DNA from: Clostridium sp. HBUAS56010 | GTDB lineage: Bacteria > Bacillota > Clostridia > Lachnospirales > Lachnospiraceae | Direction: 5' to 3' | Assembly (NCBI RefSeq): GCF_007115105.1 | Contig: NZ_SULJ01000012.1 | Span: 1-64,000, forward strand | DNA: 64,000 bases | Shown: positions 5,898-13,508 of the stretch, one piece after another | Layout of the letters: every line of letters begins with the position of its first letter | Numbering within the stretch: position 1 is the stretch's first letter | The notes under the pieces: model-generated | Seen by the model: the letters and a program-made list of their open reading frames with translations, nothing else | Database searches by the model: none | What the model was told of the DNA's origin: nothing | Translations under genes and position numbers: made by a program

Positions 5898-6880
5898 TGA
5901 AACAGTTTTCTTACCGGCATACAAAAGAAGCGGATCTGATGAATCACATGGAGGAATCGGAGCTGTTTTCCTTTGCAGAGTTTCAGGAGGGAGAGGCGGA
6001 GCGGACAGGGTATAGCAACTATTCCTATTGGGGCAGTACCATTCAGTCTTTTTTAAAGAACAGGGGAGCAGTTGTTTTATTTGTTCTGCTGCTTCTGCTG
6101 CTTGCATTTACATTTATTCAGCCTTATCTGCCTGGTCAACATGATCCAAATACCATTATGAATGACAGCAGTGGAATGCAGTACCGGAACGTTCCGCCTG
6201 GAAAAGGGTTTCTTCTTGGGACCAATTCCATCGGGCAGGACTTATGGGCAAGAATCTGGGCAGGAACCAGAACCTCTTTGATCATTGGATTTCTGGTTGC
6301 CATGGCAGAGGCAGTTATAGGCATTACGGTTGGTGTGATCTGGGGGTATGTGAGAAAGGCAGATTTTCTGCTTACAGAAGTTTATAATATTATTGATAAC
6401 ATCCCAGGTACCATTATTTTAATATTGATTTCCTATATTTTAAAACCCAGTGTACAGACTCTTGTATTTGCCATGTGTCTCACTGGCTGGATTCAGATGG
6501 CGAGATTTATAAGAAACCAGATCCTGATTATCCGGGACAGAGACTATAACGTGGCAAGCCGCTGTCTTGGAACACCGGTGAGCCGGATTGTTGTAAGGAA
6601 CCTTCTGCCTTATCTGGTATCCGTAATCATGCTTCGTATGGCGCTTACCATTCCTGCTGCTATTGGAAATGAAGTGTTTATTACTTATATTGGACTGGGG
6701 CTTCCGGTGGATACTCCCAGCCTGGGGAATCTGATTAATGAAGGGCGGGTGCTGGTTACCAGTGCCGCACTGCGTTATCAGCTTTTATATCCAACTATAA
6801 TTCTTTCTTTTGTTACCATATCATTTTATATCATCGGGAATGCTTTTTCTGATGCAGCTGACCCCAAAAACCATGTGTAA
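5897..6880 (+). CDS. oppC: Oligopeptide ABC transporter permease OppC
   Basis: The second permease, 327 residues from ATG 5897 (TGATG overlap with oppB; a GTG directly before it is the alternative). A cytosolic N-terminal tail of about 50 residues precedes the first membrane span. The OppC-type sequence LGTNSIGQDLWARIWAGTR follows. The EAA loop is DYNVASRCLGTPVSRIVVRN. It pairs with OppB to form the channel. Confidence 0.9.
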   Translation: MKQFSYRHTKEADLMNHMEESELFSFAEFQEGEAERTGYSNYSYWGSTIQSFLKNRGAVVLFVLLLLLLAFTFIQPYLPGQHDPNTIMNDSSGMQYRNVPPGKGFLLGTNSIGQDLWARIWAGTRTSLIIGFLVAMAEAVIGITVGVIWGYVRKADFLLTEVYNIIDNIPGTIILILISYILKPSVQTLVFAMCLTGWIQMARFIRNQILIIRDRDYNVASRCLGTPVSRIVVRNLLPYLVSVIMLRMALTIPAAIGNEVFITYIGLGLPVDTPSLGNLINEGRVLVTSAALRYQLLYPTIILSFVTISFYIIGNAFSDAADPKNHV

Positions 6881-10668: not shown

Positions 10669-11340
10669 TTACAGGGAAAGAAGCTCCCTCAAATCAGAGA
10701 TGGTATGAGTTGCCTTTAAAGAGGGATTGTTTCCTGTTGGGGAGTAAAGACAGGAAGCAATTCCAGAATTAAGAGCACCCTGTATGTCAGAAGTCAGGCT
10801 GTCTCCAACCATAATCGTTGTGGTTTTATTAAAATCTTTGATATTATTAAAACAATGGTCAAAGAAACCGATATTTGGTTTTTCAAATCCCACTTTTTCT
10901 GAGATAAACATACCTTCAAAGTAGTGAAAAAGACCGGCGATTTTCAAACGTCTGATCTGGGTTGCGTACACACCATTAGAGGCAGAATAAAGTTTTTTTC
11001 CAGCGTCTTTTAAACAGCGGAGCACTTCTTCGGCATTGGGCATCATCTCTTTGCCATCGCTAAGATGGTTCTGAAAACGGTGCTCTGCTTCAGAAGGATT
11101 AATGTCCAGTTCCAGAGAGGAAAAAAATTCCCTGAACCGTCCTGTCAATATGGTGGGTTTATCAATCTTGCCCTGCTCCAGCAGATTCCATAAATTTTTA
11201 TTGATCTCCTTATAGCGGGTAAATAAATCTTCCTGGAATGGAATGTCGTAGGATTCCATGAGTTTCCGAAAGCTCTCTTGTTCAGCGGCATCAAAGTTAA
11301 GCAGTGTATTATCAATATCCAGTAAGTAAAACTCATACAT
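10669..11340 (-). CDS. HAD-superfamily phosphatase, YjjG-like nucleotidase
   Basis: This 223-residue soluble enzyme has the HAD catalytic motif DIDNT (Asp8 nucleophile, Asp10), motif II SASNG, the conserved Lys in EKVGFEKPNIGFF, and motif IV MVGDSLTSDIQGA. Length and motifs match the YjjG/YfnB branch, which dephosphorylates pyrimidine nucleoside monophosphates, some noncanonical. The exact substrate is not predictable. ATG 11340 has GGAGGAA close upstream. It is the first gene downstream, on the minus strand, of the promoter inside the putative invertible segment. Confidence 0.85.
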   Translation of the reverse strand: MYEFYLLDIDNTLLNFDAAEQESFRKLMESYDIPFQEDLFTRYKEINKNLWNLLEQGKIDKPTILTGRFREFFSSLELDINPSEAEHRFQNHLSDGKEMMPNAEEVLRCLKDAGKKLYSASNGVYATQIRRLKIAGLFHYFEGMFISEKVGFEKPNIGFFDHCFNNIKDFNKTTTIMVGDSLTSDIQGALNSGIASCLYSPTGNNPSLKATHTISDLRELLSL

Positions 11341-11374
11341 GGGTCATTCCTCCAGTGTAAATAACATTTTAGTC

Positions 11375-11404
11375 ATTATATCATACTCCCGTAAGCAGGG
11401 GCAA
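11375..11404 (-). promoter_or_regulatory. Probable own promoter of the HAD gene
   Basis: On the minus strand TTGCCC and TATAAT are separated by 18 bases, 35 bases before the ATG. With this promoter the HAD gene would be expressed whatever the orientation of the neighbouring segment. Confidence 0.5.
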
Positions 11405-11505: not shown

Positions 11506-11532
11506 AAATGCAACAATATATAGATATTGTTG
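11506..11532 (-). repeat. Left 27-bp inverted repeat (IRL) of the putative invertible segment
   Basis: Read on the minus strand this is CAACAATATCTATA, then TATTGTTG, then CATTT. It matches 24 of 27 bases of the repeat at 12258-12284 in opposite orientation, with 14 contiguous matches at the start. Positions 11511-11532 are also a palindrome in their own right: 9-bp arms CAACAATAT and ATATTGTTG around a 4-bp core. This is the architecture of a tyrosine-recombinase crossover site. Confidence 0.7.
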
Positions 11533-11547
11533 TATTTTATAATAAAT

Positions 11548-11576
11548 ATTATAGGTAATAATAACTGTTGTGTCAA
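11548..11576 (-). promoter_or_regulatory. Consensus sigma-A promoter inside the putative invertible segment
   Basis: On the minus strand TTGACA and TATAAT match consensus exactly and are separated by 17 bases. The expected start site lies about ten bases inside the left inverted repeat, so transcripts cross the repeat into whatever gene lies outside. In this orientation that is the HAD gene. Confidence 0.8.
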
Positions 11577-11610
11577 TAATATGTGTTTTTTTCTGCTTAT
11601 TTCTCCAATT

Positions 11611-12171
11611 CTATAGTTGAACAAGGGCATAAAGCTCATCTTTTTCATCTTGATTAATTCCAATATAACGTAGTGTTACTCTGGGGGAACTGTGATTAAA
11701 GGTATCCATAATCAATCCAATATTGTACTGTGACATCCGGTAAGTCCAGTACCCCCAGGTTTTTCTAAGGCTGTGTGTTCCAAAGTTTTCAATATCAAGT
11801 GAACAGGCTGTCTGTTTGAGAACCCTGTATATCTGAATTCGCCCCACATATCCCCCTTTCTGACTGGGAAAGAGGTAATCATCGCAGGTTAAGGATTTTT
11901 TCAGGACATAATCGCGTAAGGTATTTCTTAAGGTCTCGTTAAGTTTGATTTTCTTTTGTTTTCCTGTCTTTTTTTCTGTTAATGCAAAGTAATCTTTAAA
12001 ATGTTCCTCATCCAGAAAGATATCAGATACCCGAATGGATATGATGTCGCTGATTCGCAATCCTGTGTTGATTCCAAATTTAAAAATTACCGCATATTTG
12101 GGATTCCTGCTATAGAGGAGGCTGTACATTTGTGATATTTTTCCCTTTTCCCGTATTGGCTCTACTGTCAT
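11611..12171 (-). CDS. Short tyrosine recombinase, likely the inverter of its own segment
   Basis: The protein is 186 residues, with start at 12171 because GGAGG lies eight bases before it; the upstream in-frame ATG at 12186 abuts that site. It is essentially a stand-alone catalytic domain without the usual N-terminal SAM-like DNA-binding domain. Catalytic residues can be placed: Arg39 (GLRISD), a beta-hairpin Lys near 67-71, His133 and Arg136 (THSLRKT), His160 (NHSSP) and Tyr169 (RYIG). Family members of this size invert promoters in Gram-positive and Bacteroidetes genomes. Inverted repeats on both sides support the same job here. Phage-remnant integrase is the alternative. Confidence 0.85.
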   Translation of the reverse strand: MTVEPIREKGKISQMYSLLYSRNPKYAVIFKFGINTGLRISDIISIRVSDIFLDEEHFKDYFALTEKKTGKQKKIKLNETLRNTLRDYVLKKSLTCDDYLFPSQKGGYVGRIQIYRVLKQTACSLDIENFGTHSLRKTWGYWTYRMSQYNIGLIMDTFNHSSPRVTLRYIGINQDEKDELYALVQL

Positions 12172-12257
12172 TTTTTGTTCCTCCATTTTATTTTCTTACT
12201 AAACCGTAAGCAAAAATTGTCCAATATACAATAATACACTGAAAGAAGTAAGAAACG

Positions 12258-12284
12258 CAACAATATCTATAGAGTGTTACATTT
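12258..12284 (+). repeat. Right 27-bp inverted repeat (IRR) of the putative invertible segment
   Basis: It reads CAACAATATCTATA, then GAGTGTTA, then CATTT. It is the inverted partner of 11506-11532 with three mismatches, and its second arm is degenerate relative to the left palindrome. It ends 27 bases before the HD-GYP start codon. Confidence 0.7.
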
Positions 12285-12311: not shown

Positions 12312-13001
12312 ATGAGCAGCAATCATTGGGCTGATAATCATTGGAAAGAAACCAGGTGCCTGGTGAAGCTAAAAAAAGAAACGGAATCCAGTAACCAGAA
12401 AGTGCTTGATGAGGCATATAAAGTGATGAATCAGATTTTATATGAGTCGGATCAGGAACCATGGAGTGAGTATATTAATACATTAACGCTAAAAAGTGAT
12501 GAACTATATCCTCATTCACTGGATGTTGCATTGTTATCCCTTATGATGGGAGCGGAGCTTAATTATTCTGAAAAGACTTTAATGGAAATTGCTCTGGGAG
12601 CCTTGTTTCATGATATTGGAAAACGTCTGATCTCAAAACGGATTTTAAACATCTCTGGAAAGCGGACCAGGGAGGAGGAGGCGATTTTCCAGAAGCACTG
12701 TGTTCTTGGTGTCCGTTATGTCTCTGGAAGTGCGTTGCCGGAAAGCAGCAGGGACATTATTCTGCAGCATCATGAGAGAATGGATGGAAGCGGGTATCCC
12801 TGGAAACTGACGGAGGAAAAGATCAATGAATACACGAAGATTGTTATGGTTGCAGATATGTATGATTATTTTACCACAAGTCATTCAATGAGGTCCTGGG
12901 AAGCATTCCGGCTGATACGGGGGGAGCGTTCTTCCTATCCGCAGAACTATGTAAATGTACTGGAGAGAGTGATTGACCGGTTTGATACGGAAAGGGGATA
13001 G
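12312..13001 (+). CDS. HD-GYP domain protein, likely cyclic di-GMP phosphodiesterase
   Basis: This 229-residue soluble protein consists largely of an HD-GYP domain. The metal-binding HD is in GALFHDIGK (about residues 97-105), and the hallmark HHERMDGSGYP follows, with a later Asp in VMVADMYDY. Metal ligands and the GYP triplet look intact, so it should be active against cyclic di-GMP or a related dinucleotide. There is no receiver or membrane domain, so control is probably transcriptional. The ATG has a modest GCAGGTG site. The next gene starts seven bases after its stop and is likely co-transcribed. Confidence 0.85.
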   Translation: MSSNHWADNHWKETRCLVKLKKETESSNQKVLDEAYKVMNQILYESDQEPWSEYINTLTLKSDELYPHSLDVALLSLMMGAELNYSEKTLMEIALGALFHDIGKRLISKRILNISGKRTREEEAIFQKHCVLGVRYVSGSALPESSRDIILQHHERMDGSGYPWKLTEEKINEYTKIVMVADMYDYFTTSHSMRSWEAFRLIRGERSSYPQNYVNVLERVIDRFDTERG

Positions 13002-13007
13002 AACGAA

Positions 13008-13508
13008 ATGATAAATAGAAAACAGATTCACAAAGCCTGTACATTCATGACAAGAGCAGTCAGAATCAGTACAATGCTTGTCTGCATACACGGCAGAAAA
13101 GAAGGTGCTCTTTATGGCGAGATTCTTAATTGTTATATGGAATATCCGGTTCCTTTTAAAAATGAAGGAGAAATGATCCTTCGGATTGATGAAATGTGTG
13201 ACTGGATCGGAACCCCTCACCCCTCAACGGAACCCAGATTTTTAAATGATGCCATGGAAAAAGAATTTATGGAGCACAGAAAATTAAAAAGTAATGTTCC
13301 GATTAAGGCAAAAGTGAGGTTTCAGGACAGCAGCAGTCTGGTATCTTATTCAGTGAAAGCGAGGGCTACGATGCTGATAACCGTGGAATACCGGCTTCAT
13401 TCCAGTTTGCAGGGCAGAGTGCAGGGGAAAATGACCAATGGAAAAGCAGTTGGGTTTCGCAGTGCCATGGAATTAATGCGTATGATGGAGGCAATTGTCT
13501 TTCCTTAA
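13008..13508 (+). CDS. Conserved-looking protein of unknown function, HD-GYP partner
   Basis: I do not recognise this 166-residue protein. It is soluble, without signal peptide or membrane span, and rich in Met and basic residues. The N-terminal half contains GEMILRIDEMCDWIGTPHP. The C-terminus ends with GKAVGFRSAMELMRMMEAI, a helix-like tail that gives the impression of a small recurring C-terminal module. It follows the HD-GYP gene by seven bases and precedes a terminator, so the two form one transcription unit. A cyclic di-GMP-related function is possible by association only. Confidence 0.6.
   Translation: MINRKQIHKACTFMTRAVRISTMLVCIHGRKEGALYGEILNCYMEYPVPFKNEGEMILRIDEMCDWIGTPHPSTEPRFLNDAMEKEFMEHRKLKSNVPIKAKVRFQDSSSLVSYSVKARATMLITVEYRLHSSLQGRVQGKMTNGKAVGFRSAMELMRMMEAIVFP

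Follow-up and report, generated by a model that had tools for sequence, protein, structure and literature searches.

A predicted self-contained promoter-inversion cassette beside an HD-GYP gene of Clostridium sp. HBUAS56010 and its relatives in Clostridia

We analysed a window of 64,000 nucleotides from Clostridium sp. HBUAS56010 (NZ_SULJ01000012.1, positions 1–64,000 of the forward strand; assembly GCF_007115105.1). Judged from its sequence, the segment 11506–12284 is very probably a self-contained promoter-inversion cassette for the adjacent HD-GYP gene, lying at present in the OFF orientation. Comparison with homologous loci of other Clostridia, covering sites, cores, promoter placement, targets and orientations, strongly supports the prediction that its promoter is invertible and aimed at HD-GYP.

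Anatomy of the cassette

The invertible segment is 779 bp in length. The locus contains the following features:

10669–11340, minus strand: HAD hydrolase, YjjG-type nucleotidase (TIGR02254, over cut-off)
11375–11404, minus strand: promoter-like site TTGCCC-N18-TATAAT (10/12, TG before the −10), 5′ of HAD and outside the segment
11506–11537: recombination site, HAD side (28-bp site 11508–11535, core TATAGA at 11519–11524)
11548–11576, minus strand: outward promoter TTGACA-N17-TATAAT (12/12), pointing away from HD-GYP as written
11611–12186, minus strand: small tyrosine recombinase, 191 aa (Pfam Phage_integrase, E = 1.7e-20)
12253–12284: recombination site, HD-GYP side, inverted (28-bp site 12255–12282, core at 12266–12271 identical to the other core)
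12312–13001, plus strand: HD-GYP domain c-di-GMP phosphodiesterase-like protein, 229 aa (Pfam HD_5, E = 3.7e-20), the predicted target
13008–13508, plus strand: 166-aa protein with no family assigned, 6 bases 3′ of HD-GYP

The inverted repeats at 11506–11532 and 12258–12284 are alike at 24 of 27 positions, and the likeness reaches 32 nt at 84% (11506–11537 and 12253–12284). Both sites are near-palindromes individually. Among pairs of at least 24/27 with a gap of 500–1000 bases, the cassette repeats are the sole inverted pair in the window. The recombinase between them has the R, H-x-x-R, H, Y set of the tyrosine recombinase superfamily, in the form of R44, H138, R141, H165 and Y174, all of which are invariant in a three-sequence alignment. 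Its true start is likely Met6, at position 12171.

The outward promoter is located between the recombinase stop codon and the recombination site, and its −35 begins 44 bases from this far site. The perfect TTGACA/TATAAT pattern, with a spacer of 16–18, occurs three times in the window, compared to an expectation of 0.10. Upon in-silico inversion, the promoter is placed at 12214–12242 on the plus strand, towards HD-GYP, with the end of the −10 about 70 bases 5′ of the start codon. The original prediction, made from the window alone, had proposed the repeat pair around a short recombinase with all catalytic residues, the perfect minus-strand promoter and its position after flipping, and each of these was recovered as described. 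It had also held that HD-GYP has no comparable promoter in the current orientation. This agrees with our simple scan, which on the plus strand 5′ of the gene detected nothing promoter-like that scores 9/12 or better.

We propose that the recombinase would act on the two 28-bp sites, exchanging strands in the shared 6-bp core, and that the segment would invert with the recombinase gene and the outward promoter on board. As written, both face away from HD-GYP, which would leave it OFF; after inversion, the promoter would drive HD-GYP, probably together with the 166-aa gene. We infer that the segment inverts in this strain, that the promoter is active and that c-di-GMP would be lower in ON cells.

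The predicted target and its companion gene

The HD-GYP gene starts 27 bases from the recombination site. Its protein aligned over 170 residues (E = 8.8e-20) with the solved structure 4mcw, which we take to be a c-di-GMP phosphodiesterase. E64, H68, H100, D101, H129, H153, H154 and D182, presumably the metal ligands, lie in motifs that align with 4mcw. With an intact frame and the HD and GYP metal-ligand motifs kept, the protein is a predicted phosphodiesterase. No receiver domain was found in the Pfam scan of the protein. The genome of the strain contains seven GGDEF matches over the cut-off and three further matches to the HD-GYP protein, so the bistable c-di-GMP put forward in the original prediction is a conjecture, and any effect of the switch may be large or small.

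HD-GYP and the 166-aa gene are probably co-transcribed. The 166-aa protein gave neither a Pfam nor an NCBIfam match. Its relatives occur in 7 of the 25 genus genomes, with two or three matches in several of them, and another lies in the strain's own genome (C34:207855).

A family of related loci in Clostridia

Searching the contigs of 84,980 species genomes with a profile of the three-sequence recombinase alignment yielded 68 loci (numbered L below; congeners are numbered G). At E ≤ 1e-40, the recombinase was present in 16 of 391 genomes sampled from the class and in 4 of 392 sampled from the order, the strain's own genome being counted in both. The set for comparison consisted of 74 loci, namely the window locus, L052–L119 minus L063, L049 with its three copies entered once, L178, L129, L177, L179 and L147. 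L063 was excluded as the same record as L049, and L146 because it reads like L059. Among 31 viral contigs, two are close to the recombinase (L146 and L147). L128, L131 and L134 were entered as L178, L177 and L179, and L129 as itself; apart from L122, L135 and L137, the other rows of L120–L145 duplicate loci already counted. L113 and L114 are without flanks, which left 72 loci for counting.

The search for sites covered 400 bases to either side of the recombinase. In 63 of the 72 homologous Clostridia loci, paired 28-bp sites flank the recombinase; because the sites were sought by their mutual likeness, their overall likeness within a locus and the enclosed recombinase are in part products of the method. 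The site pairs scored at least 17, compared to a top score of 16.0 for shuffled sequences (four shuffles per locus, preserving base make-up only). Segment length across the site-bearing loci ranges from 759 to 1056 bases. The window locus has all three features of the family: paired sites with an identical core, an outward promoter and a signalling gene.

Nine loci (L062, L067, L081, L109–L112, L116 and L118) have no paired sites. Five of them are less than 60% identical to the window recombinase; the sequence of L081 runs out some 110 bases past the recombinase, and L118 matches only in part. No sites were found in the distant loci L122, L135 and L137 either (52%, 56% and 46% identity, respectively), and the count including them is 63 of 75. 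The recombinase frame contains a stop or frameshift in 5 of the 63 site-bearing loci (L119, L117, L147, L065 and L070), which are possibly locked switches or sequence errors.

Recombination sites and cores

The sites have the approximate form ATGTAACAATA-core-TATTGTTACAT, with well conserved outer arms and a variable core. The window sites match at 23 of 28 positions, which places them among the less similar pairs; the 28-base pairs range from 22 to 28. Core statistics were calculated from 51 distinct pairs, drawn from 58 pairs of length 28 (60 pairs overall). The core (columns 12–17) is alike within the pair in all 51, compared to 2.75% between loci; for the truly variable columns 13–16, the values are 51 of 51 within the locus and 2.98% between loci. 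The arms are fully identical within the locus in only 49% (columns 1–10) and 57% (columns 19–28) of cases; the way in which the sites were searched for does not account for the core being more alike than the arms. Strand exchange by tyrosine recombinases requires a matching core within a site pair; identity within loci combined with variation between loci is thus the pattern that such strand exchange demands.

Four genomes with two or four cassettes were compared, and every core within a genome differs. The metagenome-assembled genome A05DMB11 carries four cassettes with four cores, all OFF, before FapA, MCP, CheA and CheY genes (L069, L083, L084 and L090). One exception is G001, in which three tandem cassettes have identical recombinases and sites, each with an MCP gene start (L049:6714–14243). 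This triple may be a tandem duplication or a misassembly; an assembly error is possible because some of the MCP copies run into undetermined bases.

Promoter placement, targets and OFF bias

In 30 of the 63 loci, the 110 bases that precede the far site contain an outward promoter scoring 10/12 or more, compared to 7 on the reverse strand, 4 pointing outward at the other end and 4.2 in shuffled sequences. The −35 starts 29–81 bases from the site, and in 21 of the 30 it starts at 38–54 bases. The remaining 33 loci gave no promoter of at least 10/12 in this simple scan.

In 59 of the 63 loci, a gene for HD-GYP, MCP, CheA/CheW/CheY, EAL or FapA lies within 1.1 kb and points away from one end of the segment, the genes being labelled by BLAST links, by motifs and by seeds set manually. 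In 56 of these the signalling gene is at the end from which the recombinase diverges, with the promoter directed away from it (OFF), and in three it is at the promoter end (ON; L092, L105 and L178); signalling genes at both ends were found in none. Of the four loci without a target, L075 and L089 are at a contig end, L064 has runs of N and an MCP-like gene 1.35 kb off, and at L104 the place of a signalling gene is taken by one for an EamA transporter. The 56:3 bias could reflect rare or lost inversion. L089 begins on its own site at the contig end, and a contig break at that point would fit mixed orientations. In the cassette of this family at L177:5581–6147, the OFF side is occupied by genes for CheW and CheA.

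Pfam assignments were obtained for 56 divergent-side genes from 67 loci (at least 150 aa, within 900 bases; some of these loci are siteless). HD_5 was found in 14, MCPsignal in 12, CheW in 12, EAL in 5 and FapA in 5. On the promoter side, 61 of 64 genes were analysed (L049, L064 and L112 excluded), and the best 25 of 95 families are mixed housekeeping ones, except for HD (3) and HD_5 (2). Since the promoter-side genes are mixed, they serve as an internal control for the signalling targets on the opposite side.

Orientation comparisons and descent

The original prediction had suggested a search of related genomes for the same locus in the flipped state. Such a state was found elsewhere in the family. 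The cassette is flipped relative to a homologous target in three pairs, L105–L099 and L105–L101 (HD-GYP) and L178–L073 (FapA operon), in which the recombinases aligned on the same strand and the homologous targets on opposite strands. Six pairs have the same orientation (L093–L177, L093–L179, L177–L179, L054–L058, L086–L095 and L099–L101), with long shared flanks in L093–L177, L093–L179 and L054–L058. All the compared pairs are from different species. Both states exist, yet the pairs do not show switching at one place or within a population, because the flipped ones have little in common besides the recombinase, the sites and the target. For the window locus itself, the 24 congeners provided no flipped orthologue: their HD-GYP relatives are at most 39% identical among the matches listed, and the recombinase was detected by DNA in G001 only.

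The recombinase tree contains 58 sequences (5 of the 63 were dropped); CheA, CheW and CheY were merged into one label, and L099 was manually assigned to HD-GYP. The window recombinase falls in a branch of eight rows with 100/97 support, six of them HD-GYP and two MCP, including Syntrophomonas, Desulfosporosinus and Anaerovorax. Its own branch length is 0.91, compared to a median of 0.14. The tree requires at least 27 changes among six target labels, 'none' included, compared to 34.8 in shuffles, and none of 200 shuffles was as low. The MCP label alone does not cluster on the tree (350 of 500 shuffles were as low). The cassettes often switch target type, nearly always inside one signalling theme.

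Alternative readings of the locus

The original prediction went further than a switch for HD-GYP and described a choice between HD-GYP and HAD. The family comparison bears out the HD-GYP inversion switch but not the choice of HAD: in the relatives, the nearest promoter-side gene is convergent in 46 of 64 loci and of mixed type, so a second target is no feature of the family. A two-way switch, with one orientation driving HD-GYP and the other HAD, is compatible with the promoter-inversion cassette and adds a second target to it; we consider this possible but rather doubtful. HAD is co-directional with the cassette promoter, 165 bases past the recombination site, and the terminator scan lists no terminator-like site on the minus strand between them. 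In G007, HAD lies 4 bases behind a 232-aa frame, with which it may be read; no Pfam match was found for this upstream frame in G007 or G011. With this gene missing from the window, the promoter that once served HAD may be missing as well.

Against a need for the cassette promoter stands the 10/12 promoter-like site with TG directly 5′ of HAD. The scan gave four promoter-like sites, compared to 9.1 from shuffles, and since the total falls below the shuffles, the site at 11404–11375 is within chance expectation. Alignment of G007 and G011 to the window runs from HAD to 11389 and then stops. Their counterpart of the site, TTGTCT-N18-TATAAT, falls in the coding tail of the upstream frame; this match weakens the objection, and on account of it the likeness does not speak for 11404–11375 as a promoter kept between the congeners. 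HAD may be read from the cassette promoter, from the 11404–11375 site or from both. Positions 11341–11404 (minus strand) resemble a decayed 3′ tail of the gene that is present 5′ of HAD in G007 and G011, and this remnant suggests that the cassette and HD-GYP region took that gene's place.

Two other readings would deny a working switch at this locus. It is unlikely that the cassette flipped once and no longer does so here, HD-GYP being silent or read from elsewhere. The long recombinase branch and a site pair whose arms are less alike than those of most relatives do mean that the switch may be decaying or locked, but the recombinase frame and catalytic residues, the core and the perfect promoter are all intact, and so is the HD-GYP frame with its metal-ligand motifs. 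We regard it as very improbable that the recombinase is an integrase, the sites being the ends of a small mobile element and no inversion switch. This would account for the 14-kb stretches of G007 and G011, which gave no cassette or HD-GYP match at the corresponding place, and for the many target-label changes on the tree; relatives of the recombinase also occur in plasmid and phage records, all of them distant (below 60% identity). However, inverted sites with identical cores give inversion, an integrating element would not be expected to have a promoter near the far site or to keep to one class of target, and opposite orientations exist among the loci.

Relation to known switches

Like the proposed cassette, the Salmonella Hin switch has a recombinase gene and an outward promoter inside its invertible segment. 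Hin is a serine recombinase that acts on hix sites with an enhancer. Different from Hin, the cassette has a tyrosine recombinase, 28-bp sites and locus-specific cores, and its recombinase is not classed with the serine enzymes. FimB and FimE are recombinases of about 200 aa that invert a promoter; the fim switch thus shares with the cassette a tyrosine recombinase of this size and promoter inversion. The fim recombinase genes are outside the segment, whereas the cassette recombinase is inside. The window recombinase scored below the NCBIfam cut-offs of PRK09870 (27 compared to 221 bits) and PRK09871 (23.2 compared to 222), which we take to be Fim-type tyrosine DNA invertases.

Read-based inversions beside signalling and chemotaxis genes in Clostridia have been reported (Sekulovic et al. 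2018, PMC5903667). According to the available part of that report, an inversion in Desulfitobacterium dehalogenans adjoins the gene of an HD-type phosphodiesterase, two in Clostridium thermocellum lie close to chemotaxis genes, and one in Anaerotignum propionicum lies at an MCP gene; one Providencia segment encloses a recombinase, and Hin is named as an in-segment recombinase. The Clostridia loci share with the cassette the bacterial class and the kind of neighbour gene, and they likely overlap with the present family. Unlike our description of this family, the accessible text describes no recombinase-bearing cassette, sites or promoter for the Clostridia loci. In Clostridioides difficile, an invertible promoter has been described for pdcB, a c-di-GMP phosphodiesterase gene (PMC9286219). 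As far as the available text of that paper goes, the pdcB switch resembles the cassette in placing an invertible promoter 5′ of such a gene; it differs in that its element measures 174 bp, has repeats of 19 bp and is 840 bp away from the gene, that the enzyme is of the EAL and not the HD-GYP type, and that its recombinase was not identified. A profiling study of gut invertons contains no mention of chemotaxis or c-di-GMP in the accessible main text (PMC11892184).

Given the inversions in the available parts of PMC5903667 and PMC9286219, the kind of switch is already known. The literature searched, mostly outside subscription journals, yielded no description of the cassette family. To that extent, the family seems to be new, in its sites and cores as well as in where the promoter lies and in its bias towards OFF. 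We lean slightly towards a broader view, in which autonomous, Hin-like tyrosine cassettes have spread and been repeatedly retargeted class-wide in Clostridia, nearly always to genes of chemotaxis, c-di-GMP turnover or FapA, each with its own core and an OFF default, and switch motility signalling in a rare sub-population. An own core for each cassette would prevent recombination between cassettes in one genome. If this view is true, clostridia have a common, portable and self-operating switch on motility and second-messenger signalling, a phase-variable gene and its recombinase can be predicted from sequence alone, and stochastic c-di-GMP and chemotaxis states become testable in non-pathogenic anaerobes.

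A second candidate switch in the same genome

Another pair of inverted repeats was observed on contig C34 of the same genome (C34:221089–221351; L184:6590–6613 and 6829–6852). The repeats are 24 bp in length, perfect, and 239 bases apart from start to start. A simple scan found no sigma-70-like promoter at these repeats, and the reversed-pattern control also gave two matches. The pair adjoins a 296-aa tyrosine recombinase-like frame, the 3′ end of which extends into one of the repeats, as well as a repeat protein of 550 aa; it is likely a second switch in the genome of this strain.
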